NCBI GenBank assembly: GCA_950295325.1
Contig: OX485805.1
Coordinates: 37,683,501 to 37,747,500 of the forward strand
DNA from: Polytrichum commune
Lineage: Eukaryota > Streptophyta > Polytrichopsida > Polytrichales > Polytrichaceae
Reading direction: 5' to 3'
DNA: 64,000 nt
Below are positions 10,591-31,309 of this stretch, piece by piece. Each line of letters starts with the position of its first letter. Position 1 is the stretch's first letter. The notes beneath the pieces are model-generated. The model worked only from the letters and a program-made list of their open reading frames with translations, made no database searches and was not told where the DNA came from. Position numbers and translations under genes: made by a program.

Positions 10591-11134
10591 CGCATCAATA
10601 TTTAATACTATATTCGTTAAATTGAGACTTTCTCTAGTCTCAAATTAATATATGGATCAAACAACATTCCGTGTTCCGAAACTATATTGCGAACAATCTC
10701 AAATATATTATATGTTCTAATATCCCAAATCTATTATGTGTGGACATAAGCACATATGGTAGAGCACTCAACACCAACCTCATCAACAAAAACACTTTGG
10801 GTAGAGCACTCCAAACTAGTTTCACCCAAGAAACATATAAAATGATTTCTATTATTAGCATGGTCAATAAAATATAGACATTGCAACATACAAAGTGCAT
10901 GCAATAAATGCATATTTCTTCAATGGAAAATTTAGTCCCAAATTTAATAAAAAAATGAACTTCACAATTGTATTGAAATATAGTAAATGGATATTCATCC
11001 AACCCCAAACAATATAGCATTCGCAAGTTCTACCCAAAATCTGCCCCAAGTTTGAGGAGCACACATATGAGTAATATATATTCGTCGAATTACTGTTTAC
11101 ACTATAATCATGCTAACACAATCCTACCAACTTC
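10591..11134. other. AT-rich spacer downstream of the DUF7869-type gene
   Basis: Contains an imperfect direct repeat of about 40 bp (GGTAGAGCACTC at ~10758 and ~10800). Presumably it also contains the 3' end of the minus-strand transcript that stops at 11135. No other gene signal. Confidence 0.4.
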
Positions 11135-13999
11135 TCATTCAACGTGGGTTGCTTCTTCTGCGATCCGAGCAAGGTTGTCTTTTGTAAAAGTTATGTACTT
11201 TTGAGGGATGGACACTGATCCACTATGATTTTTCCGTGGTTTCCATGCTATGAATATGGAATCTGTATCTACCCAAGATGGACCGTGCTCAGAATCCACC
11301 TTCCACCAAAAGTGTTGGTTTGTATCCCAGCCTGTATAATGCCGAACAACATCTTCATTCCGTGCTGTCGGTCGGTAGTACTCTACTTGTATTTGTCGAA
11401 AATGAGGGCTGGAAGATACAAAATTTGGATTGGACAAAGCTCTTGCCACCCACACTGGCTTTGCATATGTCTCATCTCCAGGACGCAAAATGAGCATATA
11501 ACCTTCATGACAATCCACTGCAATGCGGAAAGATGGTGGGGGACGTTGACTAGCAGGCCCAACGTAATGGTCGTCCATATCAAACTCCTCACGAACCTCT
11601 CCATTACTCAAAAGACTAGCCTCCGAAGCTTGTACATCGATACGAGTTTGTGGCCAAAATCTGTGCCTCAAAGTATGAGGGCTATCTTGGTGGAGGTCTG
11701 CCAAGGCCGCACGAACACGTGTCCAATAATGTATCCAACTCCCATAACGATGCCAACATGATCCGCCAACATCCGCTATCTTCAAACTCTCCCAATATTG
11801 AATGAAGCCTGATATACCTTTCAAAATATCCTCCAAATTCTTCATGGCTATTGGCTTGCAAGGCCTAGGCTCTCCATCTGGTAACATGGTCTTCCCATCC
11901 GCATCCACGCACCACACAAGGAGACCCTCTGGCGGGCTCCAGTCTTGTGTCGTGCACAACAACTTGTATTGCATGGTCGGGACACCATCGTCACGCATGT
12001 AGAACCGGAATTGTTGTGCCTTCGTATAGCCAATCAATCGATGAGCTCCGCTTCGAATATACGGTTCTATAAATGCCTTGAAGTCGGGAACCTCCTCGAT
12101 CATATGGGGGATGACGGGAACGTTCTCCAAATCCATGTACGACTTCATCAATAACGGGATTGTAGGAAAATCCTCCTCCCGCAACTTCATGCTCCACCGT
12201 CCAAAAGATGCATCAATATCGTCGTGCGTGTGGCCTACCAATAGGAAGGACACAAAAACCTCCTTGAAAATGCCTTTTGCAACCAACAACGACCAATATG
12301 CAAATACATATCTACTTTTATTGTCCTTGGCACAATTGTCCAATTGGACACGCAAAGTGGGGGACAACTTCTTGGCTATCACGGGTTCACTGGGTGGTTC
12401 GGGCAACGAATGCAAGCATACATCTTTTCCATCCATCACTGCTTCATATAAAGGTGTTGAACCCGTATTTTCAAATAACAATCCTGAAGAATAGGCTGGC
12501 AGTTTCTCTAAATCACGCAAAAGCCTTGCAAATGACCCTATCGTGTGGTTTGAATCTGCTGGATACAAATCAAGAGCATAATGGGCAAACTTGACATCAC
12601 CGTGTCCATGTGCAATCATTCCTACAATGCCAACCCAAAGTGATTAGTATCTATGTATGTCTAAATCGTTTTGAGTGAATCAATGTTCTCAAGTACATCA
12701 CATAATAAAATACAACAATATTTAGGGTATGTCAACATTGTTTCGAAGATCACCTGTAACCGATACAGGCAACTTAAAAAACCCATCCGTGGCCTTGATT
12801 CGTTTTGCAAAACATGGGGAGGCTGTCTTGGCATGGTCCATTTTGTCATGGATGACCGTAAGAACTTCCAAGGGCCTGGAGATGGACAACGCTCTATTTG
12901 TGTAGTAATCATTATGGTGTGCCTCTTGCATGTTTACGTGCTTGAAATAGTTCAATTGATGCACCGCAAACGACTCGGTACCCATCGTGTGTGCATCCCG
13001 AAGGCGCTTCAACTTCTCGCAATTAGAGCACCTTGCAAATTTGTCCCCTCGTCTTTTTGTAATGTATTCGCTGAAGTTTGCTTTCTTGATTGCACTCAAT
13101 TTTGACGATGAAATTGGCTCCAACCCAATCTTCTCCCCAACTGCATTTACATCCAACAATATGTCTTTCCATTTTGTGCCTGTGGGAAGAACTTTCTCCA
13201 CAACCTTTTCACCAGTTGTGAGTGTGCGTGTTTTGTGCGGCATTGCATCGGCAAGTGGGACAATTATGGTTGCTAGAGTGGCCGTTGCTTGCCTTGTTGC
13301 TTCCCTAGGTTTCTTTAAACCCACGTTCCCATGGTGACGGGACCAGCGGCCTTCCTTGGCATAAGCAGCTTGTCTATAAAAGTCCGCTTTCGACACACCA
13401 TGAATGGTGTACCATGCCTTGCAACACACGTCTATGCTCTCAATGGTGATGACCTTGCGACCCGCCCCATTCACATGTATCGCCCTATGCACATCAAGTT
13501 TTTTGGTGGATCTTAGACGGAAATCACCAAGCCACATTTCTTCGCGGATGGCCAACAATTTATCCCGGGGAAACAATTGGCAACAACGATGCACACAACA
13601 ATCCTTTGTGGCAACTTCTCTAATGGACTCCTCCCCGAGCAACCTTTGACGTTTACAATCAGTTGCAGACGGAGTAGGACGTGCCAATGTATCGTATTTT
13701 CTTTGACCCTTGGGTGGCCGCATGTTTGATTGCTGCTCTTTTTGGATTTGCAAGTGTCGTTGCTCATGTTCACACAAGGAAACACCATCAATCGTGACAT
13801 TCCTCAATGGCCACCTCCGGAGGGAGAACCTATGAGTGGGATCCACCTCGGAATGAACGAGCGACTCCAATATGACAACCCCAACGTCCTCGGTGCCAAG
13901 CGGGTTTTCATCAATGCAATCTTGTGGATGGGTGTTGCGACAAATCCCCTCCGCCACAACAACTCCACTGTCATTAAGAAGTACCACCTCCAAATTCAC
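11135..13999 (-). CDS. DUF7869/HTHDDID-type protein, probably transposon-derived
   Basis: Two minus-strand exons: 13999-12754 and 12621-11135, joined by a GT-AG intron of 132 bp (donor at GTTACAG|GTGATC, acceptor TTGTAG|GAATG). The junction gives VTG-MIAHGHGD in frame. The product is about 910 residues. Visible blocks include a Cys/His-rich stretch (TKDCCVHRCCQLFPR), LADAMPHKTRTL, a CxxC (ARCSNCEKL), HDKMDHAKTASPCF, GHGDVKFAHYALDL, then LDNCAKDNKSRYVFAYWSLL and VGHTHDDIDASFGRW. The last two resemble the acidic motifs of RNase H-like transposases. From memory this matches proteins annotated DUF7869, abundant in several plant genomes and usually flanked by repeats. The true start is uncertain: a 73-residue acidic frame just upstream (14217-13996) appears joined by a 1-nt frameshift. 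No TIRs were found. Confidence 0.7.
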
Positions 14000-14217
14000 C
14001 CATGAAGCCCTTGAGAGTCCCGTACATTCAGCAATGGGACATTGTGGTACGAAGGCGAAGGTAAATCCAAATGATCTTCATCTGCACTGTCAGCCAAAGT
14101 ATCCTCCCCGACAATGTCTATCTCATCCTCAGATGCAGATGGCCAAGTGGCCATATCTTCAAATGACCAATCCCCTCTTTCACTAAACCCATTCATTCTG
14201 CCTACACACATGAACAT
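13996..14217 (-). pseudogene. probable N-terminus of the DUF7869-type gene, out of frame
   Basis: A 73-residue acidic frame beginning MFMCVGRMNGFSERGDW and rich in Asp/Glu ends exactly where the large downstream frame begins (LHG-stop against VNLEVVLLNDSG). One inserted base would fuse them. No GT-AG intron fits the short overlap. Either this allele carries a frameshift or the downstream ORF starts elsewhere. Confidence 0.45.
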
Positions 14218-14409
14218 TGAACCTTATCAAGAAACCACAAAATTGTAGATTCCAATCGAATAATACAAAAACCATCTTATATAAACAATATTGCAAATAC
14301 ACAGTGTTCATACATGTTCATATGAATGCTATGCCATTGGCTTTGTAAAGGTTTGGGTTGGCCAGTGGACACACTATCATTTAGAGCCCATCCACACGGT
14401 GGGTTTGGG

Positions 14410-15471
14410 TTTGGGTCGACCTACCCAAACCTTGTGGCACGATGGGATCATGGTCATCCAGACTCCATCCAAACAGTGGGGATAAATTGGGTCGAGCGAC
14501 CCAAACCTTTTCGCAAGATGGGTTCAGGCTCATAACAAAGAGCACCCACACAGTGGGGATGGATTGGGTAGACCGTCCCAAATTATGTAAGGGCAATGGG
14601 ATGTGTCAAACCTAGTACATGCCCACTGTGGGATAAGGTTTGGGTCGACCGACCCAAACCTTATAGGGCAGGATGGGCTCAAAGTCCACCCTAGTACATG
14701 CCTCACGTGGGGGTGGGTTTGGGTCGACCGACCCAAACCTTGAGGGGTAAGATGGACTCCGTGTCCACCCTAGTACCTGCCTCATGAGGGTATAGGTTTG
14801 GGTCGACCGACCCAAACCTTGAGGGGCAGGATGGACTCCGTGTCCACCCTAGTACCTGCCTCATGAGCGTATAGGTTTGGGTCGACCGACCCAAACCTTG
14901 AGGGCCTGGATGGGCTCCTTGTCCACTCTAGACCCTGCCTCACGAGGGGATAGGTTTGGGTCGACCGACCCAAACCTTGAGGGCCAGGATGGGTTCCTTG
15001 TCCACTCTAGACCCTGCCTCACGAGGGGATAGGTTTGGGTCGACCGACCCAAACCTTGAGGGCCAGGATGGGCTCCTTGTCCACTCTAGACCCTGCCTCA
15101 CGAGGGGATAGGTTTGGGTCGACCGACCCAAACTTTGAGGGGCAGGATGGACTCCGTGTCCACCCTAGTACCTGCCTCATGAGAGTAAAGGTTTGGGTCG
15201 ACCGACCCAAACCTTGAGGGGCAAGATGGACTCCGTGTCCACCATAGTACCTGCCTCAGGAGGGTATAGGTTTGGGTCGACCGACCCAAACCTTGAGGGC
15301 CAGGATGGGTTCCTTGTCCACTCTAGTACCTGCCTTACGAGGGGATAGGTTTGGATCAGGCTGAAATCGCCCACACTAGTGGAGGGGTTTGGGTCGACCG
15401 ACCCAAACCTGATCAGGGTCAGGCTGAAACCCGCCCACAGTAGCGGAGGGGTTTGGGTCGACCGACCCAAA
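14410..15471. repeat. tandem array of a 79-bp unit with a 20-bp palindrome core
   Basis: Each unit carries TTTGGGTCGACCGACCCAAA. Exact copies start at 14639, 14718, 14797, 14876, 14955, 15034, 15113, 15192, 15271, 15388 and 15452. The spacing is exactly 79 bp from 14639 to 15271, and the inter-palindrome sequence (CTTGAGGGGCAGGATGG.., CCTGCCTCATGAGGG) is also conserved. Degenerate copies lie at 14410, 14486 and 14563, and a broken one near 15350. All exact copies share the centre AC. The array begins about 190 bp beyond the 5' end of the DUF7869-type gene. Small open frames over it only reflect the period. Confidence 0.95.
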
Positions 15472-15474
15472 CCT

Positions 15475-16150
15475 GATAAGAGTCACGCTAAAACCCTCAA
15501 AATCCGGCGGATAATGCGGCGGATAATCCGTAATGTGTTGTTTTTAAGCTCATTGCAAAGTTCACGGTGGGCTTCCATGCTGTGGGTAGGTGCTCATGAA
15601 CTTGCATGCTGTGGATAAGTGCTAATGAACGGCAGCATGCACGAACCTTGAAGTATAGCTCCGACTAAGAGTTCTCTCTACGAATTCAAGAGTGGGAGAA
15701 GAGCAAAAAAGGACAGACTTTTGGGGGGTGCGTCCCTTTATACTATCCACCTCCGTTTCTCGGACTTCCTCATTGGATGCCTTTCCCGCCTTGTTCTCCT
15801 GCAGAGGTTATTTCAAACCTCCTGACATAATTCCCCGTTTTTTTTTTATAGTAGAAAATGCGCATCTTTCAATGCCCCTCTGATACCCCAGCCGTCATAT
15901 GACTTAGTCTATGATATTTTTTTATTTTTTTTTGTCTTGTGTGGATATGACATACGCCGTTGGGAGGAAGGGTGGCGGCCACATTAATTTTTTCAAGTGT
16001 CATGACGGTATATTTTAACAAATATTTTAACTCCATTCAATGCTTTCAAGTGTAAACCTATTTAGGTGGGGTTTGGGCCATTTGGAGGCTGCAATTATGA
16101 AAGGGTTTCCAAGGCTTGAGGCCATTGTCGTGATGAATAAAATTATTTAT
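15475..16150. other. spacer between the palindrome array and the telomere-like block
   Basis: Mixed-composition sequence containing GGCGGATAAT direct repeats at about 15504-15530 and homopolymer T tracts. No gene signal. Confidence 0.4.
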
Positions 16151-16156
16151 TTGTCT

Positions 16157-16177
16157 CCCCTAAACCCTAAACCCTAG
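16157..16177 (-). repeat. interstitial telomere-like repeat, CCCTAAA orientation
   Basis: About three units of the plant telomere repeat, reading CCCTAAACCCTAAACCCTA on the plus strand. Confidence 0.85.
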
Positions 16178-16197
16178 AACATTGCTCTATTATCTCG

Positions 16198-16325
16198 CAT
16201 GCAAGTGTGGCAATGAGGAACGTATGTGGACGTTGTTAAAGGGATACTAACTACCAATGTCGTTTTTTAGTTCAATCTGTTAATGATATTTGAATCCATC
16301 TTGAAGTTCACTTCAAGTTTACTAA
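16198..16325 (+). repeat. diverged direct repeat, copy 1
   Basis: Starts GCAAGTGTGGCAATGAGGAA and shares with 17407-17540 the ordered blocks TGTGGCAATG, CTATGTG-like, TTTTTAGTTCA and CATCTTGAAGT-like. Flanking position around the foldback suggests an old duplication or decayed terminal repeats. Confidence 0.5.
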
Positions 16326-16429
16326 TGTGTGGCCTTCGTGGCTCTTCGTGGCGCCAACCATCAAATGACATTGCTAATTCCGTGATGAAATAACTACACA
16401 AAATATGGGGTGTGTGTTTCATTATATTT

Positions 16430-16995
16430 AGTGTTGTTACCACCCTACTATGCTCAACATTAATTTTTAAATCTTTGACAATTACTGTTACACATAAATG
16501 TGTCGCTTACCTTCTACTTTCACGTATATTTTTTCTTTTCACATCCTTCCTAACACTAATTGCAAACATGTAAATTCCACATATTACCATAGATGATACT
16601 TATTGTGAGAGTTTACATTTTATGTCACTGACTTTCATATGGTTATTGATATTTAGTGCATGCGCTTGTATATAGGGTATCAAACACTAGATATCATATT
16701 TTGTGTAGTTGGGTTTAGGAGTTTAGTTCATAACATATTTAGAGTTTGATACACTAAATACGAACGCATCTACTCAATACTAATACCACTATGAAAGTAA
16801 GTAACATCAAACATTGTAAATTCAAACACTCAATATTATCTATGGTAATATGTTGAAGTTACATGTTTGAATATAGTGTTAGTAAGGATATGGAAAAAAA
16901 ATGATAAAGAAAGATCTCCAATATATCTTCCAATATCCTATAACAATATTTGTCAAAAAAATTAAAATTATTGTTGATGGGGGTAGACTGTCTCA
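16430..16995. repeat. ~560-bp foldback (long imperfect inverted repeat)
   Basis: The left arm from about 16435 to 16700 is repeated in inverse complement from about 16995 back to 16725. Matching landmarks include AACATGTAA, CATATTACCATAGAT, GACTTTCATA/TACTTTCATA, TTTAGTG and GTATCAAAC. The central loop lies near 16710. The arms have diverged but pair through most of their length. It looks like a foldback transposon or MITE; no coding content. Confidence 0.75.
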
Positions 16996-17406
16996 TTTTA
17001 TGTGCCTATGACATGCACCATTGGGAAGAAAATGATATTTGATAACTGATTTTGAGAACCCATCCTCCACAACTTCACATTGATGCATTGCATACAAATC
17101 AAATTATGTACTTCCAGGATATTACTCTACTTGGACTCAAATATTATGGTTTATTTCAAATAATATCTTGACAATATATGTGGCAACATTATGAAACTTC
17201 ATATAGCTGAAGCCACCAAATACAATTACAGTTTATGTCGTTATGAAGACTTTCACATGAGGACTTATACATTGAAAACAAGGAATTGATCTCATGACAA
17301 ATTTGAATAAATTGGCCAACTTTCAATTTGCAACAATAAAATGAGAAAAGCTTTAAAAGAACATGTGACGTTTGTAATGTGTGCACACAACGTTGATCCA
17401 TTGTCC

Positions 17407-17540
17407 AACATACAAGTGTGGCAATGGATAACCTATGTGAAAGGCATTAATGGGAATTCCATCACGAATAGGACTTTTTAGTTCACTCTTTCAAGGATGT
17501 TTGAAACTATCATGAAGTCCATTTGAAATCTAGTATGAAG
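17407..17540 (+). repeat. diverged direct repeat, copy 2
   Basis: Partner of 16198-16325 in the same orientation, beginning ATACAAGTGTGGCAATGGAT and continuing through CTTTTTAGTTCACTCTTTCA and ATCATGAAGTCCA. Confidence 0.5.
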
Positions 17541-17733
17541 ATCATATATACTATAATCAAGTTATTATACTCTTCTTTTTAGACAGACATTGTTATAACT
17601 TAATATTGGTTGACATGATCGTGAGCACATATGATTAGGATGTTGTCAAGACAATATACATTTGTATTGGAAACTACAAGCACTAAGGCCCTGTCATTTA
17701 ACCTTATGTGCCATTCATTTAAGGCTTGCGGTG

Positions 17734-17760
17734 TTTAGGGTTTAGGGTTTAGGGTTTAGG
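17734..17760 (+). repeat. interstitial telomere-like repeat, TTTAGGG orientation
   Basis: Nearly four perfect TTTAGGG units on the plus strand, opposite in orientation to the block at 16157-16177. Confidence 0.9.
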
Positions 17761-18290
17761 TTGGAGGGATCATCGAACATCAAGCTTAATGCTTACATGG
17801 CTTCATATGATGTTGAACTCCATGGGGTTGCAGTAGATAAATTTGTAATCTTTGTGTATCTCCCATGTACTTCAAATGTCAACTTCTATGTACTGATATA
17901 AATGTTGAATTTAATGCTACTTGGGTGGGTAATATCCATTGTAGGCTAGAGCCTTATCTTCTACGAACTTGGGTTATAGAAATTACAATAGAGAGCACTT
18001 AGTCTAAACCCTTGACCATGTAAATTGTCACCATATTTTAATTGTTGCACCGTGCAATTGCATTTGAGGATTGCAATATACTTATGAAATACTCCTCTTA
18101 GACTTTGTATCGCTCTCATCTTACTCCATATGACTACAATATTCAAATACTAAAACAAATAATGGATTCATTCTATGATGTAAGCAATTCCAACGCGGGA
18201 CCATTGAATTGAACACCATTAAAATCAGAGTTGGTGATGGTGTTAATTTTGTGCAATACCTTAGGCTATGTTGCTTTTCGATTTTTGGGC

Positions 18291-18314
18291 TAAGCCGCTA
18301 TAGATAGCGGCTTA
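18291..18314. repeat. perfect hairpin with 11-bp arms at the edge of a GC-rich block
   Basis: TAAGCCGCTAT, then AG, then ATAGCGGCTTA. It begins a GC-rich stretch (18290-18500) that lies about 1 kb upstream of the first inferred splice donor of the ParB/methylase-like locus and could be part of its promoter. Confidence 0.6.
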
Positions 18315-18660
18315 GAAGGCCGGGGCCGGGCTTCGGCGGGCAGGAGGCCGGGTGGCCGCTAGGCGCCAAGTGTGCACCCCAGAAGCCTCAGGTAGCCACC
18401 ATCACCAATAAGGTGTTGACACATGGCAGGGTGGTTGCCCGCGAGGCTTGTGAGCCGTAGATGGGCTCGGGGCGCTCCCATGGCCCAGATTGGGTCCCAT
18501 GGCGACCCTTCGCTTTGTCTATTTAACTCCCTCCGTGCCAAGCTCCCTCCTTTCTCTCCCTCATTTCTCACCTTGTCGTGAAGCGGCGCCTCCGCCTAAC
18601 GCCGCTTCCCACATTCTCTCTCTCATTCCTTTCCACCTCTCTGATTCTTGTAACCCTCTT

Positions 18661-19108
18661 CTCTCATTCTCTCTTCTTCTTGTAAGGGTTTAGGAGTGAT
18701 TGTAGAGTGTGTTTACGGGTTGGGGAAGTGTTTTTGTGTAGAAATATGCGCATTGAGTGATTTCAGGGTGTGTATGTTGTTTAGGAGTGTTGTTTTGTTT
18801 AAAAATACAAGCATTGAGTGATTTCAGAGTGTGTTTGTTGGTTAGGACTGGAAGCGGCGCCTTTCGACTTACACTCATTCTCTCATTCTCTCATTCTCTC
18901 ATACTCTCATTCTCTCATTCTTCTCGCCGTCTCTCATTCTCTCTTCTTCTTGTAAGGGTTTAGGAGTGATTGTAGTAGGGTAGTGTTTTTGTGTAAAAGC
19001 ATCCGCATTGAATGATTTCATAGTGTGTTTGTTGTTTAGGAGTGTTGTTTTGTTTAAAAATACGAGCATTGAGTGATTTCAGAGTGTGTTTGTTGGTTAG
19101 GAGTGTGT
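18661..19108 (+). repeat. duplicated ~185-bp leader segment
   Basis: The segment beginning CTCTCATTCTCTCTTCTTCT at 18661 is repeated at 18931. Both copies continue through TTGTAAGGGTTTAGGAGTGA, GCATTGAGTGATTTCA and GTTTGTTGGTTAGGA. The CT-rich start suggests 5' UTR or promoter sequence of the gene whose 5' splice site is inferred at 19311. Confidence 0.7.
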
Positions 19109-19311
19109 TTTTGTTTTAAAGTGCGCCCTTGTAGTGATTTCAGAGTGTTTTTGTTGTTTTGAAGTGTGTGTGAGTTGTTTGTGAAATCTAGTGAGTGGAA
19201 TTTTAGTGAATGTTAGTGATATCTGAGTGTTCAGGTGTAATCTGATTCTAAGAATCAGATTCGCAAAACCTATTCGCAAAACAGCATCAGATTGGCAGAG
19301 CTTGCATCAAG

Positions 19312-19940
19312 GTAACTTATCTCACTCAACATAACCTGCTTCTTAGCCTTTAGGGTCTTCATGCATATACAATGCATAAGCATTGTATATGCAGCGTAAA
19401 ACATTATGGGTGAATATTGAAACACTACGGTTTTGGTAGACGCCCGAAACCTCTATATAAAACCCCAAACCCATAAAGAATTAACTGGGCAGCTAGTTTG
19501 GGTCGCTCGACCGAAACTCTGCAGCTGGTTTGGGTCGAACGACCCAAACTCTGCAACCTATAAATCCAATATCCCAAAATAAACATCCTTCCCACCATCA
19601 ACAAGAAATTATATTCAAATGGCTATAATTTGAAATCGTCTGATATTTGTTGGCATGTCCACATACGTCCAGCGCGGCCCTAGAATGTCACCAAAAATTG
19701 CTCTCCTGTTGGATAATTTGACCACTACACAATATTCAATATATTCATATTCTTAAGACCCGAACTCTACCAATAATTCTTATACGATTAGGCTATTCGA
19801 GGCTTGGGTTTGGGTCGGTCGACCCAAACCTATTCATGATGGCCAGTAGAGCACCCTTCAATTTGCACTGATGTTCAATCCAAGTTGAAAAACTTTGGGT
19901 CGATCGACCTAAACTAACAATTTTGTTTCTGGACTTACAG
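19312..19940 (+). other. inferred 5'-UTR intron with four palindromes
   Basis: The donor is CATCAAG|GTAACTTA and the acceptor CTGGACTTACAG|ATG, so the coding start coincides with the first base of the next exon. Palindromes lie at 19497 (centre CT, one arm mismatch), 19529 (AA), 19809 (GT) and 19894 (AT, one mismatch). The splice sites are read by eye and not confirmed by transcripts. Confidence 0.55.
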
Positions 19941-21071
19941 ATGGCCACTAAAAAGAGACCTGGAGAGAGGTGGTTCATGCTCGCCCCAGACCACCTTTGG
20001 GAGGAGTACGAAACTCCACAGGACGACTCATACGTCCCAAAGGACGGGATCGTTCTTACGTGGTCCGTTCAGGTTGTGAAAGCCTCCCAGTACAAGCTCT
20101 TGTTCGTGGTGAAAGTGGGGACCCACGAGCAACACACCTGGGCAACGCTGACGGGATGGGAGGTTGCTTCCGTCCAAACTCTCGGGGAGCACGTTGACGT
20201 TATTCTAGAGAACTCTGCAGTGCAGAACGTGCATATGTTCATGCACCAATTCTCCGAGGCTTTCGACCCCCTATACGCCAAGGAGACGTGCGTTGACCCG
20301 GAGATAATAAAACCGGAGACCATCTTCATAGATGGCACTGTATCGAACACCAAGGTCGCTAGCAGGTTTACAAAACTGAAACAAGCGATCACGGTTTTGA
20401 ATAAAGCATTGCAAAGCAAACCAAAAACGCAACAGCCTGTCAGGCGGAAGGCCAAGACAGAAGAAAGAGCAGGTTCCTCCAGACCCCAATCTGTAAGGAT
20501 TCCGCTGGCGGTTCCGGCAGATTCTAGAAGACTGAGCACTACCTCGACTCCGGCTGACAGCGAGACGCCAACTCCTTCAGGAAGCCGGTGGACGACCCCG
20601 TCCGGAAGCCGGCAGACGACCCCGTCGAAAAGGGCAAGGGAGTCATCAGTCATGACCACCGAGCCAGTTTTGCCAGAGTTGCGGATGCCCAAGCCTGGTC
20701 AAGAGGTTGATGCTGGGGAAATTCAGAAAATCAACGACAATTTTGAGACGAAATGCCTCCATTGCTTCTTCATGGGCAGGGACTTCAAGTTCGAGGTGAA
20801 CATTGCACAATGTCACCTTGCGCCACCTGAAAAGTGTGTCCGAGCCAAGGAGGATGCCTATGTCGACTGGATGGTCGCTCAAATCTTGGGCGGGCAGTTC
20901 AAGGACGACAAGCAGACAATTGTCGTGATGCCCCAGGGGCTAAAAATAATGCCTACGGCTGATATGTGGCCGGCGATTTCTAAAGGAGATTTCTGGCTGA
21001 TTGACGGCCAGCACAGTGTCGAGGCCTCCAAAAAAATCCAGCTGATGACTGAATGGGACGACCCCAACAAC

Positions 21072-21074
21072 TAG
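21072..21074 (+). other. in-frame TAG in the ParB-like region
   Basis: The frame reads WDDPNN-stop-KEKLKVWKALVVW and stays open afterwards to the splice donor at 21290. A TGG to TAG change is the simplest origin. Confidence 0.8.
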
Positions 21075-21290
21075 AAGGAGAAGCTGAAGGTATGGAAGGC
21101 ACTGGTGGTTTGGTCGGACAACGAGACCGTCCTCAGTGACATCTCCAGGTTTTTCAACATGGGAAATAAAAAGAGGGCGTATCAGGCATCCTGGATTAGG
21201 AATATAATGGCCTCGAGGGATGTGTGGGAGTTCTATGGCAGGCCTCCCAAGGAAAGGGAGAATGCAAAAGACAAGAACCCAAAATGGGAG

Positions 21291-21606
21291 GTGAGTAAGT
21301 TTGGGTCGATCGACCCATACTCTTGTATTGTTTTATTTTCTTCGCAAGTTTTGTAGTTTGGGTCGATCGACCCAAACTCTTGGATTGTCTTATAGTCTTC
21401 ATCAGTTTTAAAGTTTGGGTCGATCGACCCAAACTCTTAGATTGTCTTATAGTCTTCATCAGATTTAAAGTTTGGGTCGATCGACCCAAACTCTTAGATT
21501 GTCTTATAGTCTTCATCAGATTTAAAGTTTGGGTCGATCGACCCAAACTGCTGTTCCATTTTTTCATGATGTGTTCTCTAACATATGTTCTTGACTTCAT
21601 GTACAG
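21291..21606 (+). repeat. intron made largely of five 57-bp palindrome units
   Basis: Palindromes TTTGGGTCGATCGACCCAAA start at 21300 (one mismatch), 21357, 21414, 21471 and 21528, exactly 57 bp apart. The donor GGGAG|GTGAGT and acceptor TGTACAG|GACTTC flank them in phase 0. The first palindrome begins 10 bases into the intron. Confidence 0.9.
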
Positions 21607-22617
21607 GACTTCAAATACCAGATGATCAATAAATTCTCCTCTATTGACAACGCTAGCCACAAGCAAAAAAAATATAACGAGCTAAGAGGAGAAATCTATT
21701 TGATCACAGCGTCCGACTCCGTGTGGACAAAATGGAAGACTGTCTTCGAAAAACACGAGACGGGAGACTTCATCGATTCCGACACCGGCATTTTGTACAA
21801 CCAGACTACGCGCTTCAAGCAAATGAAGCCACTGGTGAGGGAGTTCTTCAGAGTTCTTCAAGATCTCTCGGAGACAGAGGTGGGAAAGGCGGCGTCCCAC
21901 ATCCTCCACATGCAGCCGACGGCGAAGAGATGCTGGGTTCACCCGAAGATCGTCTTCACGAAGCCTAAGATGTTCGTCCCTTCATGCTACACCTTGAAGG
22001 AATGGACGAAGAACAGGAAGAAAAAGACGACCATCGTCCAAGAGCTGCACAAGCTGGTGCCCGAGAAGAAGCTCATCGTGGACGGAGAGGTTGACGAGGC
22101 GCACTGGAGGGTATTCAAAGCCGAGAACAAGTTCACCAGTGCGTCCATGGCGGCACTCATGAGGGAGGCGGGAGACGACTTCCTCAGGTCCAAGTTCGTG
22201 AAGGGTGGGAGGAACCGGGCGCTTCCCGAACACTCCGCGCGTGCCTTCTCCAACTTTATAAAGGAGAAGAAGATCGTCAGGTTCGAGGGCGAAGCTCACT
22301 TCAACTTGGTCTCCCTCGAGCCTTTAAAGATCCAAGGTTGGCCGGGCTCTGATGCTAGGAAGGCGATCATGACTGCAGCCGGGGACCGCTTCCCCTTCGG
22401 AATGATAGACTTCAGGAACATTCCTGGAGCGTCATTCGAGGGGACAATGAGCACCCCGTTTTACGAGCCGTTCTTCACCAAGTTCGTGGACTACGCCAGC
22501 CCCAAATTCAGGGAGGTCGACGTCTGGTTTTGGATTGTCGAGGACAGGAGGGCGGAGCAGGTGTACGAGATCGTGCGTAAATTGCAACCAGAGTACGCCG
22601 TCTCAAAATCTCATTAC

Positions 22618-24021
22618 CAGGGTTGTCTATTGTGTCGTGACGGAGGGTAATCCCGGCATAATGTCGTGCTGTCACGACACGTATCCGTCACGACATTATG
22701 CCGGATGCTGTCTTTATCCTGACGGACTTGAATTTTACCGATTTTTTTGTGTAATTACATTAACCCAATTCAGACACGTAGGATTTACAATGTCCACGTG
22801 TGATGACATGTCAGCAAAGTAAAGGTAAAGTGGGGAAAAATTTACTAGAGCCCGTCCGCCCCCCCGTCCACCCCTCCGTCCGCTCCCCCGTCCGCCCCAG
22901 TTTTTTTCTTTTTCTTTCCCCCCCCCCTTCCCCGTCCGCCCCATTTTTTTAAAAAAAATTCCCCCCCCTCCGTCCGCTCCCGTTCCCCCCCGTCCGCCCC
23001 TCCGTCCGCTCCCCCGTCCGCCCCAGTTTTTTTTTTTTTTTAATTTTTTTAATAAATTTATTTTCCCTTCCCCGTCCGCCCCATTTTTTTTAAAAAAAAT
23101 TTCCCCCCCCTCCGTCCGCTCCCGTTCCCCCCCGTCCGCCCCGTTCCCAACCCCGTCCGCCCCGTTCCCCCCCGTCCGCACCCCGTTCCCCCCCCCGTCC
23201 GCGCCCCGTTCCCCCCCGTCCGCCCCAGTTTTTTTTTTTTTCCCCCCCCCCCCCCCTTTTCCCGTCCGCCCCATTTTTTTAAAAAAAAATTCCCCCCCCC
23301 TCCGTCCGCTCCCGTTCCCCCCCGTCCGCCCCCTTCTCGACCCCGTCCGCCCCGTTCCCGACCCCATCCGCCCCGTTCCCGACCGTTCCCGACCGTTCCC
23401 GACCCCGTCCGCCCCGTTCCCCCCCCGTCCGCGCCCCGTTCCCCCCCCCCGTCTGCGCCCCGTTCCCCCCCGTCCGCCCCTCCGTCCGCCCCATTTTTTT
23501 TAAAAAAATTCCCCCCCCCCTCCGTCCGCTCCCGTTCCCCCCCGTCCGCCCCGTTCCCAACCCCGTCCGCCCCGTTCCCCCCCGTCCGCGCCCCGTTCCC
23601 CCCCCCGTCCGCCCCCATTCCCGACTCCGTCCGCTCCGTTCCCCCCCCCCCGTCCGCTCCGTTCCCGCCCCCGTTCCCGACCCCGTCCGCTCCGTTCCCC
23701 CCCCCACCCCCGTCCGCCCCACCCTCGTCCCCCGTCCGCCCCACACCCTCCTTAGTCGTTTTTTACTACTTTGATTTTAACAAAATGGTAAACAAAATGG
23801 CAAAATGATTTACCTGGCGCTAGGCATATCCACGACCACGTCGGCGTTTTCTGCCACATAGGACGCCACCTTGGCAAGAAGGTAAGTATTTTACCCACCC
23901 TAGTCCGTTCCCCCTATGTTGACCCTACGTGGACCCTATTGTGTCGTGACGGAGGGGTCCGTCACGACACGACACGACATGACGGCACGACACCGTCATG
24001 ACGTCGCGATAGACAACCCTG
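22618..24021. mobile_element. hAT-type non-autonomous transposon, 1.4 kb
   Basis: The ends are CAGGGTTGTCTAT on the left and ATAGACAACCCTG on the right, a perfect 13-bp inverted repeat starting CAGGG as in hAT elements. Perfect 8-bp target duplications CTCATTAC lie at 22610-22617 and 24022-24029. Removing the element and one CTCATTAC restores the host frame (SKSHY-VAAPAEGAYSS). Subterminal CGTGACGG / CCGTCACG repeats occur on both sides, including a hairpin at about 22650-22705, as expected for transposase-binding motifs. No transposase is encoded; the interior is a GC-rich minisatellite. Confidence 0.92.
22845..23750. repeat. C-rich minisatellite inside the hAT element
   Basis: Nearly a kilobase of variants of CCCCGTCCGCCCCGTTCCC, broken by units of T(7-9)A(7-9)TTCCCCCCC. 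The plus strand is extremely C-rich. Long Gly/Arg/Asp frames on the minus strand are a by-product. Length variation and assembly error are likely here. Confidence 0.9.
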
Positions 24022-24350
24022 CTCATTACGTTGCTGCACCGGCGGAGGGGGCGTACAGCTCATTGAAAGACAAGAAGACGAAGATAGTCTGTGTGCTGTG
24101 CTTGTACTTCGTGTACAAAGCTGAGCTGCTGAAGGTGCCAAACCATCCTATAGCCCGGATGGAAAAGCTTTTCCAAGTCCCAGAAGGGTTGGGCACCAGC
24201 AGAAGCTTGTACGACGAGGCGAAGTACGCCAACTACCCCGCGGATGAGCTGCGGATGGATTTTTACCTGCGGATGATGAGGACCCTCACGAAGAGGGGGG
24301 ACTTCATCTTCAACGTCTTCGGGGGCTCCAAACCGGTTTTTGCAGCAATG

Positions 24351-24520
24351 GTAAGAAACTAACCTCGTGGATGTATATGCCTGGTTTGGGTCGAGCGACC
24401 CAAACTAGGGCATGCACAGTTTGGGTCGAGCGACCCAAACTAACTATTATTATTTTTTTGGGTGTCATTTTTCCTTATTCTTCATTGGTGATACTAATAC
24501 TATTGATTTGGATTGTGTAG
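24351..24520 (+). repeat. intron with two palindromes
   Basis: Donor GCAATG|GTAAGA, acceptor TTGTGTAG|ATGTCT, phase 0. TTTGGGTCGAGCGACCCAAA occurs at 24385 and 24420, both with centre AG and 35 bp apart. Confidence 0.85.
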
Positions 24521-25642
24521 ATGTCTGGGTTGAACATCTACTCCTATGTGGAGGATACCGATGTTCAATTCTACAGGACCCAGAAGGCGCTGGCGAAGAG
24601 AATGGACATCCTCGACTGGATACCCGGATCCTACGTCGAAGAGATCGTCGAGGGGGGCGAGAATCCTTTGGATATGGCGAGGCGAATCAACCCGGGTGAA
24701 TTCGCCATGCGCGCCCCCGTTCAATTGCCAGAACCGCTCATCGGGTTGCATCCGGGCAATCCGTCTATGGGAGCAGGTGGTGAGGTTGCGGAGGAGGGGG
24801 AGGAAGAGGAGGATGAGGAGGAAGCAGAGAAAGTGGAGGGGGAGGTCGAGGAAGGGGCAACAGGATTCACTCAAGAATCCGAGGCCCCTCAGCGGAAGAA
24901 GGCCATGCGAGCTGCCACGCCGCAGAGCAAGCTAGTGCCCGTCCTCACGGTGGCCGACGCGAAGGACATGTATTCGAGGGATGCGACGGCCACCTTCAGG
25001 GAGCGGCGAATGTTGAAGGGGAAGAAATTATACAGCGATTATGTGGTGGAGGAGACGATCGCCATAAGCTCCGAGGACGAGGACGACATGGAGCTCGCGA
25101 AGAGGCTGAGGTCGGATCCTGCCTCCCCCACAGCGTTCGCCGGGATGGTGAGGGTGAAACCCGAGGTCCTCACCGTGGAGGAGGCCAATGCGAAGATGCT
25201 CCGGGACGAGGAGCAACGCGTCCGATTGCAAAAGGCCGCCGCCGAGGAGCCCTCGGTCCGCAACGAAGTCGCGGAGTTGAGGGCTCTCCTGTTGGAGCAG
25301 GAGCGGCAAAGGGCGATGGCCCCACCTCCGTCCCAAGCGGACCTGATCACGCAAGTGATCCAGGGCATGCTGGCGCAGGGATTGGTGATGGCTCCCTCGA
25401 GTTCATTCCCTCACTTGCCCGCAGGCTTCCCTCCACAGGATATCCGCCCGCGGCCGGCGCCGCAGCAGTCCTTCAGTTTCGCGCACTTGCTGCAGCCGCA
25501 CGCCCGCCCTTACGCGCCCGTCCAGCAGGTGGACGACCCCAACCTTTGGCGCGTCCCCGGAGCTTCCAGCTCGTTGGCACCCCCGCCGCTCCGGCCTCCC
25601 ATCCTCTCGCCCCCACAACACCAGCGGGACGACCCCCACATG

Positions 25643-25731
25643 TTTGGGTCGTCCGACCCAAACAGTGCCCACGTTGCAGCGTCCCAGAGCGACGCTCGCC
25701 AAGCAGCAGGGTTTGGGTCGGCCGACCCAAA
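25643..25731 (+). repeat. two palindromes within coding exon, translated as FGS[SA]DPN
   Basis: Copies at 25643-25662 (centre TC) and 25712-25731 (centre GC) lie 69 bp apart and in the same codon phase, giving MFGSSDPNS and GFGSADPNP within the disordered Pro-rich region. Confidence 0.9.
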
Positions 25732-25987
25732 CCCCGTCCCCGACCAGACCCCGGTGGACGAGCCCATGTTAGATGTTGAAGGCCCGCAAGGGCCTGGTGA
25801 TACCTCTACTCCTAACCCAGTCGATGAACCAATGCATGATGCGCATGCGGAGGTTGGGTTGGGACAAAGGCCTGACAGTCAGCCTTTGCAGGAGCAGGTT
25901 GCGGCTGACGTCGGAGGCGGCGGTGACAGAGGTGGGGCAACGCACGCGATGCCGGCATCAACGTCGTCGAGGCACGACCAAGGCGAG

Positions 25988-26505
25988 GTAATGCACTGAC
26001 CCCACTCAGTTTGGGTCGGTCGACCCAAACTCCCTGGGTCTTTGTCTTCTTGCCTTGGTCGTGTCCCCTACCTACCCTAAACTCACGCACACGTCTCCCC
26101 CCCCCCCCGGCACTCGCGCCCTTCGCCACATCCCCCCGACCATTCGTTCGTCCACATACCCCCCGGCTTGCGACGAAGTCTTCATCACGGCGGCCCGTCT
26201 CTTCAAATTTTGATAGATGTAGATTTAGGCTAGTTTGAACGCATCGTTCAACGCGGCTCCCCCCAATCAAGATGTACATAGAGCATTGTATACAATATAA
26301 TCACCATTTTTTACTCCTATATACTCGTATCCTGTGTTTGAATGTATGTTGTATGCTCTTGCCTCTCTTGTGTCCCTTGTTGCACCCCCTCCAAAATGAA
26401 TCAAATGGTTTTGTGTTTGCACCGAGGACACTCGTTTCTTTAATGCTTCGTTTGGACATAGCATGACATAAGTCGCCCACCGTTTTCTCTCGATCGTATC
26501 CGCAG
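25988..26505 (+). other. intron before the HAD domain, one palindrome
   Basis: Donor AAGGCGAG|GTAATG, acceptor GTATCCGCAG|GGCTCG, phase 0. One palindrome at 26010-26029 (centre GT), 22 bases into the intron. The remainder includes a C10-type tract near 26098 and AT-rich sequence. Confidence 0.7.
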
Positions 26506-27183
26506 GGCTCGGAGCATAGCGTAGCGGCTCCCCGACGCTCTTCTCCAAGGAGCAGAGAGGGCAGCGCGGCGGCGCCCCTGATTTTACCCGCCCCGCCCCC
26601 GCGGCCGAAGAAACGATTCCTGGTGTTAGACCTGAACGGGGTCCTCGTCCAATGCGTTCATTGCCCGAGGACCCCCACGGTGCCTTTTTGCAAGCCCGAG
26701 GACGCGAATTACGACGGCCCGCCCACGTTCATAAAGAGCAAGCTAGTTCACCTCCGCCCGTGGCTTCGGACCTTCCTCCAGATGGCCCAACAACGATGGT
26801 GGGTGGTCGTTTGGAGCTCCATGACGGCCGAGAACACCAATGCCGTCGTGGAGTTCATCTTCAAGGGCATCGAGCCCCCCTGCATGGTCCTAGCACAGGA
26901 AGCCTGTAGAATATTGTACACACCGGACGGCAAAGTCGTCAAAAAACCAAACAACCCCGCTTCCCCCCAATACCTCAAGGTCTTGAAGCCCATTTTTTGG
27001 GACCAACGGCCGTCCTTGATAGGCGTCCCCTACGACGTCCGTCCCACCCGCGAGAACACGCTCATGGTGGACGACAGCGCCGCAAAGAACATGTTGAACC
27101 CGACGGCCAACCTCATAGTTTGCCCTACCTGGACGGTCGAGAAGGTCCGGGACCGATTTTTGTTAGACCTTGGTAAATACCTC

Positions 27184-27186
27184 TAG
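27184..27186 (+). other. in-frame TAG near the end of the HAD domain
   Basis: After LDLGKYL the frame meets TAG and then continues ALCGSGLPVNNFVRNNPIG, which resembles the usual C-terminus of plant FCP1-like proteins. CAG to TAG or GAG to TAG would explain it. Confidence 0.65.
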
Positions 27187-27329
27187 GCGCTCTGCGGAAG
27201 CGGACTGCCCGTAAACAATTTTGTTAGGAACAATCCGATAGGCGAGAGATACTTGGATCCACGAGACCATTTGTACAGAGAGTTGTTATCTCACGCGAAA
27301 TTTAACAAGCTCATTTGAGACACTACGTG

Positions 27330-27392
27330 TGTTTGTATGTGTATGTATGTATGTGTGTGTGTGTGTGTGTGTGTGTGGGCGCGCGCGCGCCC
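27330..27392. repeat. TG/GC microsatellite
   Basis: TGTATG units merge into (GT)n and then GCGCGCGCGC, in the presumed intron after the HAD exon. Confidence 0.9.
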
Positions 27393-27493
27393 TTTCATTT
27401 TGTGTAGTATATGCTTCATATGTATCTTGATTTTCACGCGCTCTATCAAACCCTCCTCCCTTGGGTTTTGTTTCGTTTCCTTTTTTACGCCAG

Positions 27494-28282
27494 CGTTTGG
27501 AGCCCTCGATTGACATCGTCAGCGAGTCGGACTTGGGGAGCTTCTTCTACGAGACCGTCTACGACGCCGCGTCGACCATTGACTACTCCAAGGAGCCTCT
27601 TGACGCCGGCGTCGTCGATAGCCCCCCACCCAAGCAAATCTTCCGGCGATCTGCGTCCCCGTCGCCGCTCAAGGGCATAAATCGCAAATGCGTCCGGACA
27701 TCCCCCTCTCGGCCTGGCGGCAGTAGTACACCTCAACGGCGGCTGCGGATGGACGCTCGGCCAACGAAGAGTGGAACCCTTCCTATTCCTTTGCGGGACG
27801 CATTGCCCCTCCTCGCCGACTCCAACGGGAACGCCCCCGGTGACAAGGTGAACCCCCCCCCCCCCTAAACATGGTTATCCGCGCATTACAATCATCCAGC
27901 ACTTAAAAAATGAACGTGTGACACGTTTGGGTCTTCCTCCCTAAACTAACACGTGTGCTCTTGCATTCACGCGTTGCAAGTTGCTCCCACCCGTAGACCA
28001 ATGCGGGCTAGTGCGTCCGTCGAGTTGGAGCGTTTCTACTCCATGACCAGAAATGCAAGACAGTCCACTTCATCGTATTCGAATTCTTCGTCGTATAATT
28101 CGGGCGGCCGACGGAATCCAAAATGTGTTATAGAGGGCGGTCAACCCAAAAATGGCTATAGTCGCGGGGCGGAGATTTTCAGGAATGTTGAAGCAATGCG
28201 AGCAAAAGAAGCCGCAGCAAAAGAAAAAAAAGCAAAAGAAAAAAAAGCAAATGAGATAGAGGCAGTCTCCGAGGCTAGATAG
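27494..28282 (+). CDS. probable 3'-terminal exons of the palindrome-bearing locus
   Basis: One open frame starts after TTTTTTACGCCAG at 27494 (LEPSIDIVSESDLGSFFYE..) and can splice at CCCCCG|GTGACA (27839) to an acceptor at 27980, giving NAP-VAPTRRPM. It then runs to a stop at 28282 through a Ser-rich stretch and an Ala/Lys/Glu coiled-coil-like tail. The intron 27840-27980 contains a degenerate palindrome (TTTGGGTCTTCCTCCCTAAA, 27926). I could not join these exons in phase to the HAD exon without ignoring a TGA at 27316-27318, so they may be the end of the same gene with a further mutation or a separate small gene. No domain is recognised. Confidence 0.4.
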
Positions 28283-28469
28283 GCCATAGTAGGCGTAGGG
28301 TTTTGGACCATAGGCAATATGATTTTGGGTCGCACTATCCAATGGATGTGTGGTGTTAGCATGCTATGCATTTTACGTGCCATACTTTGTTTTTTTTTTG
28401 TTTTTTTTGCAATAATATAAGTGTCACATGATTTTGCCTTCAATATGGTCTAAGGTTTGGAGTGCCTTA

Positions 28470-28745
28470 TTGTGTGCATTAATATGAATGTTTTAAGATT
28501 TCCCCTTCAATAAGATCTATGGTTTGGAGTGCCCTACCTAAACCATACATTACAAGCTCTCATATTTTGTGTGCATTAATATGAATGTTTCAAGATTTTC
28601 CCTTCAATAAGATCTATGGTTTGGATTGCCCTACCTAAACCATATTCATACAAGCTCTCATATTTTGTGTGCATTAATATGAATGTTTTAAGATGTCCCC
28701 TTCAATTTGGTCTAAGGTTTCGATTGCCCACCCTAAACCATCACA
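28470..28745 (+). repeat. tandem repeat of a ~108-bp unit, about 2.5 copies
   Basis: Units share TGTGTGCATTAATATGAATG, CCCCTTCAATAAGATCTATG and GGTTTGGATTGCCCTACCTA, starting near 28470, 28572 and 28667. The unit's inner GGTTTGG..CCTAAACC is itself weakly palindromic. Confidence 0.8.
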
Positions 28746-29529
28746 AATATGAGTTATTAATGGGGTTCTTGGTCTAAACACCTGCTTCAAAGTGTTCGCA
28801 TCTTACAACTTTCACCAATATGTGTTCCATTTATCCTTGTTCTTATTTCTATGAATGTCTCAAAATGCCCAAAAAGTCTCAATTTAACGAATATAGTGTT
28901 ATTTGCTCGACGTCACATCCTTAGGCGTAAAATAACGAGCAAATCAAAACCTCTCATGCTACGCCGAAAAGTATAAATAAAAATACCTTCAATACAATTA
29001 TAAAAGGTGTCCATAATTAGATATAATAGGCGCATTTTTTGCAAGTTTGAACGAGTTCATTCGGCTCAAAGTGTAAGAGAGAAAAAATCTCCCCACAACA
29101 ATGATGAAATTATTTGACTTCGTAATCCGTTTGGAGAATGCGAGGAAGTTAGGAAGCTGATCACGCCAAAAAATCAAATCAAACGGCCAGAAATAGTCGA
29201 CATGAAAGATGTGAATAAAAAATAATTATGCTTCAAGTGAGGCAAGGCCGGCAATATTATATGAGAATATCGCAAAAATGCGAATAGAGGTGGGAAGACA
29301 AAATTGATATTTATCATGATTGTACCATCGAAAATACAAATTGAAAAGTATAACGTCACTTTGGTCAAAAAAAATATTTAACTATAAGCGGTGGTACTAA
29401 GTGTTTGAAAACTTAAGTCTAAGATTACATGTAGTTGAAGGTGGCTTTGACTCTATGTTCTCTTTGATAAACCTAAGCAGAAAGTGATCGATTCTTAAAA
29501 AAAAGTCAAGTAATGAAACTAACGTAACT

Positions 29530-30018: not shown

Positions 30019-30300
30019 CAAAACATCAACACCAGAAGAAGAAGAAGAATAATAATAATACCAATAAGAAAATAAATAAGTAATTGAACACAATAATACC
30101 AACACTAGTAATAGTAGCACTACTAGTAGTAGCAACACCACTAGCAACAACAACAACAAAATATTAGTAACTAGATCTAGTAACACCAACACTAGCAAGA
30201 CTAGTAGTATCAACATCAATAGCAACACATGAGCAAGAACAATACAAGAGAATCAACAATAGTAACAACAACAACAACAATACACAACCACCAACAAAAG
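29985..30300. repeat. low-complexity ACC/AAC/AAT trinucleotide tract
   Basis: Runs of CACCAG, AACACC, AATAATAAT and CAACAACAA. The hydrophobic minus-strand frame over it (Leu/Val/Ser runs) is an artefact. Confidence 0.9.
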
Positions 30301-30391
30301 AAAGAAGGGGAAAAAAAATCCTAATGTGTGACTTTGGTAGCTTAAGTATTGTATAATTAGGATGGTGGCTCACCTTAAATAACTAGGGCAG

Positions 30392-31306
30392 ACCCTGTGC
30401 GTTAACGCACGAGGTCTATGTGCCCAGTTGGAGGCCTAGCAAAGTTGCGCGCATAGACCTTGTACGCTAATGCACAGGGTTTGTTCGTCTGGCTACATGT
30501 GGTTTGAAAGTTTCCAGCGCCGACCCTATGCGTTAACTTACAGGATTAATATCATTTTTTTATTTTTTTTAAATCTGGATTTAGTAGATTTGCCAAAACT
30601 TGTAAAATCTATAAATAATACAAATCATGTCCATATATATATATATTTGTATATTATCTAAATTTCCATAGCTACAATATTTTCTTTGAAATCATTTCTC
30701 TTATTCATTCTTCTATGTATTTCATTGTTTTTGGCCACCTCGTATATTTTAAGTTTGCGGGCACAAAAAAATTTCCTACTGTTTCTTATGATTTTCTAGC
30801 CCTGTCACGTATTGTATCAATATTTTAGCACACACATTCCTCATTTTCTGCATTCTAACCTCATTTTCGCCAAATTTCTTGCTCCAACCTTCCATACGTC
30901 GTTTCAAATTCATACAATAGGTATTTTTTTTACTTCTCGGCTCTTCAAGTCGTTGGCACATACCCTGTGTGTTAACGCACAGGGTTTTCCCTCCTAACTT
31001 TCAAGCTCACTTACTTGCCACCACATACATTATACATCAATGTACAGGGTTCTCACCTAATTTATAAGCTTTCGAAGTCGTTGTCATATACATTGTGCGT
31101 CAACGCAAAAGGTTTTTTATTTTAATTTATAACTCTCCAAGTCGTTGTCATATACCATGTATGTTAACGCACAGGGCATGTGGTAGCGACTTAGAGAAGT
31201 TATAAGTTAGAATGAAAAACCCTGTGCGTTGACGTATAGGGTTTTCCCTCCTAACTTTTAAGCTCTTTTATCCGTCCCATTTACCATGTGCGTTAACGCA
31301 CATGGT
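30392..31306. repeat. second palindromic repeat family, core TGTGCGTTAACGCACA
   Basis: Nine copies of a 24-bp near-palindrome centred on GTTAAC start at 30392, 30457, 30523, 30962, 31027, 31090, 31154, 31219 and 31283. The last six are spaced 63-65 bp apart. The best copies read CCTGTGYGTTAACGCACAGG. The spacers share TTTTCCCTCCTAACTTTYAA, present inverted beside the copies at 31154-31219. The arms vary (CATGTG, CATTAT), so copies range from perfect to weak hairpins. Confidence 0.9.
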
Positions 31307-31309
31307 TCA

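Follow-up and report, generated by a model that had tools for sequence, protein, structure and literature searches.

A conserved palindrome as a candidate self-address of giant DNA transposons in the moss Polytrichum commune

We analysed a window of 64,000 nucleotides from the moss Polytrichum commune (GenBank assembly GCA_950295325.1, contig OX485805.1, positions 37,683,501 to 37,747,500; coordinates below count from the first letter of the window), in which one short palindrome recurs in and around a gene for a ParB/methyltransferase-like protein. All exact copies in the window fall within a single DNA transposon of about 18.3 kb. From sequence comparisons, the palindrome is best read as an address by which transposons would recognize their own kind, and not as an intron-making element. 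It is probably the recognition site of a dimeric, sequence-specific protein encoded by the transposon, most likely the one with predicted ParB and methyltransferase folds.

Results

Palindromes within one transposon

Allowing up to three mismatches, we found 29 palindrome sites in the window against 0.04 expected; 22 copies are exact, and 11 of these stand in a tandem array. The conserved unit is 22 bp long, GTTTGGGTCG-NN-CGACCCAAAC, with a purine favoured before it and a pyrimidine after it. Within the ParB-like gene, four palindromes (two exact, two with one mismatch) occupy the predicted intron of the 5' untranslated region (19496..19915; starts at 19497, 19529, 19809 and 19894). Five lie in 57-bp repeats of intron 2 (21291-21606), spanning 21299..21548 with starts from 21300 to 21528, one of them with one mismatch. 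Intron 3 (24351-24520) holds two (24384..24441; starts 24385 and 24420) and intron 4 (25988-26505) one (26009..26030; start 26010). Two more are found in coding sequence, where they read FGSSDPN and FGSADPN (25642..25733; starts 25643 and 25712), and their arms are kept in four copies of the element while the flanks have diverged. A degenerate 22-mer with 4 mismatches of 20 sits in the last predicted intron (27925..27946), and a half-site at 28324. This placement, together with the variable two-base centre, had been given in a preliminary description made from the letters of the window, and we confirmed both.

That description also tied the palindrome to the introns of one gene. Fourteen further sites (11 exact; 14410-15471) form tandem arrays of 79-bp and then 64-bp units with one palindrome per unit (14409..15473), outside the ParB-like gene and upstream of a minus-strand DUF7869 gene, indicating that the pattern is not limited to one gene or its introns. 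Repeats occur as tandem units of 32-79 bp, and 13 of the 22 exact sites belong to the array or to a coding exon. The absence of the palindrome from the neighbouring clathrin and BRCT introns, reported earlier, stands and is explained by the borders of the element, which exclude them.

The element (family 1; 10604..28900) has the ends AATACTATATTCGTTAAATTGAGACTTT and AAAGTCTCAATTTAACGAATATAGTGTT and is flanked by ATTT at 10600-10603 and 28901-28904. An inverted-repeat search of the window returned a pair of 29-nt terminal inverted repeats (TIRs) with 97% identity at 10603-10631 and 28873-28901, and the borders were set by reading the flanks. Three further full copies, of 17.0, 18.1 and 18.6 kb, were found on contig C1, with 0-3 mismatches in 26 TIR positions. 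Both TIRs and a 4-bp target duplication are present in 4/4 copies, and the duplicated bases differ among them (ATTT in the window, AAGT, CCTT and ATAA elsewhere). A 4-bp duplication is the rule in the Sola1 superfamily, and family 1 matches it. The mobile unit is a transposon of 17-19 kb, and not the tiny mobile palindrome that had been suggested. The element holds two divergent genes, the DUF7869 gene on the minus strand and the ParB-like gene on the plus strand.

Constraint on the palindrome

In the window and six regions of C1, we collected 171 sites with at most three mismatches, and 123 of them match the 22-mer exactly. Conservation is 91-100% at every position of the arms and beyond them is confined to the edge preference for a purine or pyrimidine; 12 of the 16 possible centres occur. 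Among mismatched pairs, 62 are changed on one side and one on both, with none compensatory. As these sites were picked by similarity, comparison at orthologous places is the fairer test, and we counted changed positions in arms and flanks there (Fisher's test). In the deepest comparison, between the window and the copy at C1:1.18 Mb, flanks had diverged by 33-53% and the arms were mostly fixed. The changed positions in arms and flanks were 0/20 and 150/454 for intron 4 (P = 7.8e-4), 1/20 and 54/102 for intron 3 (P = 4.1e-5), 9/70 and 59/139 for intron 2 (P = 9.9e-6), and 1/40 and 54/137 for the coding sites (P = 1.2e-6). For the closer copy, at C1:0.61 Mb, the counts were 0/40 and 30/126 for intron 3, and 1/80 and 62/175 for intron 2. 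The number of palindromes varies among the four copies (5, 4, 3 and 3 in intron 2; 2, 3, 2 and 3 in intron 3), and introns 2, 3 and 4 keep GT/AG at places common to all four; the 5' untranslated and last introns are predicted only.

Genome-wide distribution and a second family

Searching the 407.8-Mb genome for the palindrome, as the preliminary description had proposed, returned 9,731 exact copies, against zero for a reversed control pattern. Placement was read from the first 100 listed sites, about 1% of the total and from one end of one contig. All 100 fall in five elements, of which three belong to family 1 (81 sites) and two to a second family (19 sites).

Family 2 has different terminal repeats (61 bp, 87%) and a target duplication of 7-8 bp, GTTGGCA(T), as read in one copy. 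Copy A (C1:434-483 kb) is interrupted by nested insertions, and its borders were drawn by similarity to copy B with 444-456 kb not included. By eye, the family carries a MULE-like reading frame with the motif FKGFMADSAQANWNAV, for which Pfam returned only SWIM at E 0.059, below the cut-off. Other frames, also by eye, contain a DGNHR box that keeps the Arg (DGNHRFFAW) and a methyltransferase-like stretch. No family-1 protein matched within the two copies (tblastn, 1e-8). Contigs of GTDB genomes and viral contigs contained no exact palindrome pattern, and one protein-to-locus scan of the viral contigs gave no match.

A second palindrome, AAACCCTGTGCGTTAACGCACAGGGTTT, occurs in family 2 in a 64-bp tandem array (L023:3575-4867, equal to C1:2157575-2158867). 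Just right of the window element, 30211-32652 is a diverged family-2 relic (66-80%) that has no palindrome array. About 6 kb beyond copy B, at C1:2170561-2170923 (L024), a weak DUF7869-like stretch is 35% identical to the window protein and possibly belongs to another family.

Homologues and arm variants

Where homologue reading frames continue beyond exon 1 or exon 2, their tails are translated from the first part of intron 2 or 3, and we used these tails to look for the palindrome elsewhere. The count of 57 tails excludes those shorter than 7 residues and those missed by the parser (P0141 and P0198 among these). Homologues were clustered at 90%, and since an exon-1 row and an exon-2 row can share a contig, the rows are not independent. 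Thirty-six of the 57 tails hold a stretch encodable by a perfect GTTT-N6-NN-N6-AAAC palindrome, of which 26 fit the common arm and 10 only other arms; in 300 shuffles the mean was 0.16 and the maximum 2 of 57. On each of the two protein trees, the arm types so read back can be explained by the minimum number of changes (3 and 4), and none of 200 shuffles was as low. The type CGGGCG, seen at intron 2 on one tree and at intron 3 on the second, forms a single fully supported clade on each, and P0192 has GGGCCG-compatible stretches on both sides of exon 2 (by eye). Labels on the trees were set partly by hand: P0198 was labelled from its parser-missed tail, and P0199 from an N-terminal extension that represents intron 2, not 3. 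P0192, compatible with 16 arms, was labelled GGGCCG, and P0189 was labelled CGGTCG despite a fit to the common form at one site of three. Short rows, P0166 among them, were omitted.

The ParB-like gene

The plus-strand gene was modelled as five coding pieces, each of a length divisible by 3, and two of these belong to a single exon that an insertion has divided. Exon 1 (19941..21290) is predicted to encode a PH-like fold, a disordered linker and a ParB-N domain with a DGQHSVEA box; it has an in-frame stop at 21072. Exon 2 (21607..24350), split by the insertion at 22618-24021, would encode a helical region and a DNA amino-methyltransferase fold. These assignments come from translation and from models and fold searches of the homologues P0121 (exon 1) and P0169 (exon 2). 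In the fold listings, ParB-like rows lead for P0121, giving a ParB-N (ParB/sulfiredoxin) fold, and are followed by kinase, sulfiredoxin and PH-like rows; bacterial ParB, Noc and KorB structures are among the matches. For P0169, methyltransferases lead. The earlier label of a ParB/methylase-like gene is thus supported at the level of predicted folds. Profile searches of PDB sequences, run from the alignments of DUF7869 and of exon 1, yielded nothing useful.

The next coding exon (exon 4; 24521..25987, plus strand), from its translation and a length divisible by 3, is of low complexity, acidic and proline-rich. It is followed on the same strand by an exon with a NIF/CTD-phosphatase-like domain (26506..27318; PF03031, Pfam E 4.9e-14) and an in-frame stop at 27184. 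The NIF/HAD motif, expected as DxDx(T/V), reads DLNGV at 26620-26660, and the phosphatase-like domain may therefore be inactive.

Other features of the element

The transposase-like gene (11138..14190, minus strand) carries DUF7869 (PF25273, Pfam E 1.8e-41). Its coding parts are 12621-11138 and about 14000 to 12754, with an uncertain start and a splice join set by eye. Several Asp residues are invariant in 43 homologues. Among the 120 homologues listed, the named ones belong to two mosses, Ceratodon purpureus and Physcomitrium patens, at 43-48% identity; a JGI protein matches 60% of the query at 98% identity. We found no mention of DUF7869 in the open-licence literature searched.

Repeats of the GTTTAGGTAGGGCACTCCAAAC type stand at fixed distances from both ends of the element and resemble degenerate palindromes. 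A degenerate relative lies at 10795..10816 (plus strand); its distance from the left end, about 192 bp, is the same in 4/4 copies. Close to the right end, a 98-bp repeat contains three of the GTTTAGGTAGGGCACTCCAAAC type (28522..28738, minus strand), the outermost and innermost being matched in 4/4 copies and the middle one in three.

The insertion at 22618-24021 is 1.4 kb long, is rich in CCCGTCC repeats and is absent from the three family-1 paralogues. It has an 8-bp duplication, CTCATTAC, and the ends CAGGGTTGTC...GACAACCCTG, and looks hAT-like by eye. Between the two genes of the element, a 94-nt inverted repeat with 80% complementarity occupies 16531-16901, and four TTTAGGG-type repeats, resembling plant telomeres, are found at 17733-17760. 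Outside the element, 8221-9648 on the minus strand contains fragments of a Copia-like polyprotein, as judged by eye from translations.

Discussion

Constraint without structural compensation, a free centre, apparently symmetric change between lineages, and restriction of the sampled sites to elements with a ParB-like box together suggest a dimeric site read by a factor of the element itself. A binding site for a dimeric protein had been proposed in the preliminary description, and the sharp edges of the near-invariant arms and the constraint in coding sequence add to the case for it. That the element encodes the binder is likely. That the binder is the ParB-like protein we favour with less confidence, at somewhat better than even chances; this protein is a better candidate than the transposase, given that the palindrome occurs in two families whose ends differ.

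The transposase-like DUF7869 protein could instead bind the sites for synapsis or strand transfer, the palindromes being internal relatives of the subterminal repeats. Such a role would account for the degenerate relatives at fixed distances from both ends in four family-1 copies and for an array upstream of the DUF7869 gene. It appears improbable, however, as no exact site in the window comes closer to the left end than about 4 kb or to the right end than 2.9 kb, the subterminal motif has diverged from the palindrome, and family 2 shares the exact site despite its other ends and the lack of a match to any family-1 protein at the tblastn threshold used. A host protein is also a possible binder: a host transcription factor or chromatin protein, whose site transposons captured for their expression, would fit the sharing of the palindrome between families with different ends as well as arrays that lie upstream of genes or within 5' introns. 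Against it, none of the 100 listed sites (of 9,731) lies outside elements, and the putative arm variants form clades on trees of the element's protein, so that we consider this explanation unlikely.

Perfect inverted repeats in predicted introns, with a copy number that varies in tandem repeats, might also be kept as RNA or DNA hairpins or cruciforms that act in processes such as splicing, small-RNA production or slippage. This is very unlikely given that 62 of 63 mismatched pairs are one-sided and none is compensatory, that the sequence itself is near-invariant, and that the palindrome is also found in coding sequence and in the array. Introner elements are repeated sequences in introns, and the presence of the palindrome in most introns of the ParB-like gene had raised the idea that an introner-like or miniature mobile palindrome made or invaded them. 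We rejected this origin, to which we attach next to no credence, because introns 2, 3 and 4 stand at equal places in four copies while the palindrome number differs in introns 2 and 3, and because 13 of the 22 exact sites are outside the introns of the gene, and because the repeats take the form of tandem units. Neither intron gain nor a mobile unit bearing splice sites was seen here.

Several results weigh against a ParB-like palindrome binder encoded by the transposon. In the comparison with the closer copy, the arms did not differ significantly from the flanks in intron 4 (0/20 and 41/480; P = 0.39) or in coding sequence (0/40 and 10/137; P = 0.12), and the nine changed arm positions of 70 in intron 2 of the deeper comparison are perhaps in part due to misaligned repeats. 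Twenty-one of the 57 tails lack a palindrome, including those of the five most distant homologues with tails of at least 7 residues (P0209, P0213, P0214, P0215 and P0217). The symmetric arm variants are putative at the level of DNA, being read back from peptides through degenerate codons, and their clustering on the trees also fits plain descent. As to the protein, Foldseek gave no match at E <=0.001 for the P0121 and P0169 models, and the P0121 model is of middling quality (mean predicted local distance difference test score 68.5, predicted template modelling score 0.39). The nucleotide-binding box of ParB is of the GERRxR type, whereas DGQHSVEA, near-invariant in 34 homologues, lacks its Arg. 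Motif IV of DNA N6A/N4C methyltransferases reads (D/N/S)PP(Y/F/W), and the fold predicted here has no DPPY-type motif; in the consensus of 36 homologues, the strand with an invariant Asp, placed by eye, reads IDFRNIPG. Classic enzyme activity is doubtful for both domains. A helix-turn-helix of the kind that reads parS was not identified, the helical stretch after ParB-N not having been folded or searched alone, and each of the four family-1 copies read has a broken ParB-like gene according to the models used. The ParB-/methyltransferase-like gene of family 2 had no Pfam match and a best E of 0.033-0.035 in NCBIfam, far below the cut-off, and comparing profiles of its exons with family 1 gave nothing significant.

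Bacterial ParB-parS systems use palindromic sites, and sopC of the F plasmid has one inverted repeat per tandem unit. The arrays described here have the same arrangement, and the predicted ParB-N fold is that of ParB, Noc and KorB; the family-1 protein differs from bacterial ParB in lacking the Arg of the box and an identified DNA-reading helix-turn-helix. In Arabidopsis, VANDAL transposons encode VANC, a DNA-binding protein with anti-silencing activity; VANC6 motifs also occur in the unrelated element AT9TSD1, and motifs change between families (PMC5735166, as far as its text was accessible). Like VANC motifs, the palindrome is found in tandem repeats in non-coding regions of the element presumed to encode its binder. 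The comparison is one of description and not of homology, and the VANC motifs are quoted in the accessible text as 8-9 bases and not given as palindromes (PMC5735166), in contrast to the 22 bp palindrome that also occurs in coding sequence here. Similar in gene content is Sola1-1_Ec32 of Ectocarpus, a giant DNA transposon of 21.5 kb in which one gene on the opposite strand codes for a ParB-like domain joined to an N4/N6 DNA methyltransferase domain. Relatives in green and red algae are mentioned in the same paper, whose authors raise the possibility that proteins of this type bind the transposon that encodes them and modify it (PMC12477816). The window element, from a moss, shares this plan, adds a match to NIF phosphatases, and has a methyltransferase motif that looks degenerate. 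The accessible text of that paper names no binding site (PMC12477816), nor did we find one named for ParB and methyltransferase transposon proteins in the accessible open-licence literature.

We propose that a protein encoded by the element would bind the palindromes and load onto the whole element. Once bound, it might keep the element transcribed or mark it for transposition, by self-recognition or by a VANC-like anti-silencing effect, the latter being a tentative suggestion from analogy. Elements with broken genes, the window copy included, could still be served in trans. A more speculative version, which we regard as doubtful, resembles ParB-parS: a pseudo-methyltransferase with a ParB fold would dock on the thousands of palindromes of its own elements, coat the elements and shield them from silencing, site and protein would co-evolve through symmetric changes of the arms, and an unrelated family would share the address in a network acting in trans.

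Genes combining ParB and methyltransferase domains in giant transposons have already been reported, with no target named in the accessible text of that report (PMC12477816). The shared, mutation-resistant palindrome provides a concrete candidate target for these accessory proteins. If this reading is correct, sequence-specific self-recognition by transposons, of which VANC is a known case, would extend to mosses, to palindromic sites and across transposon families.

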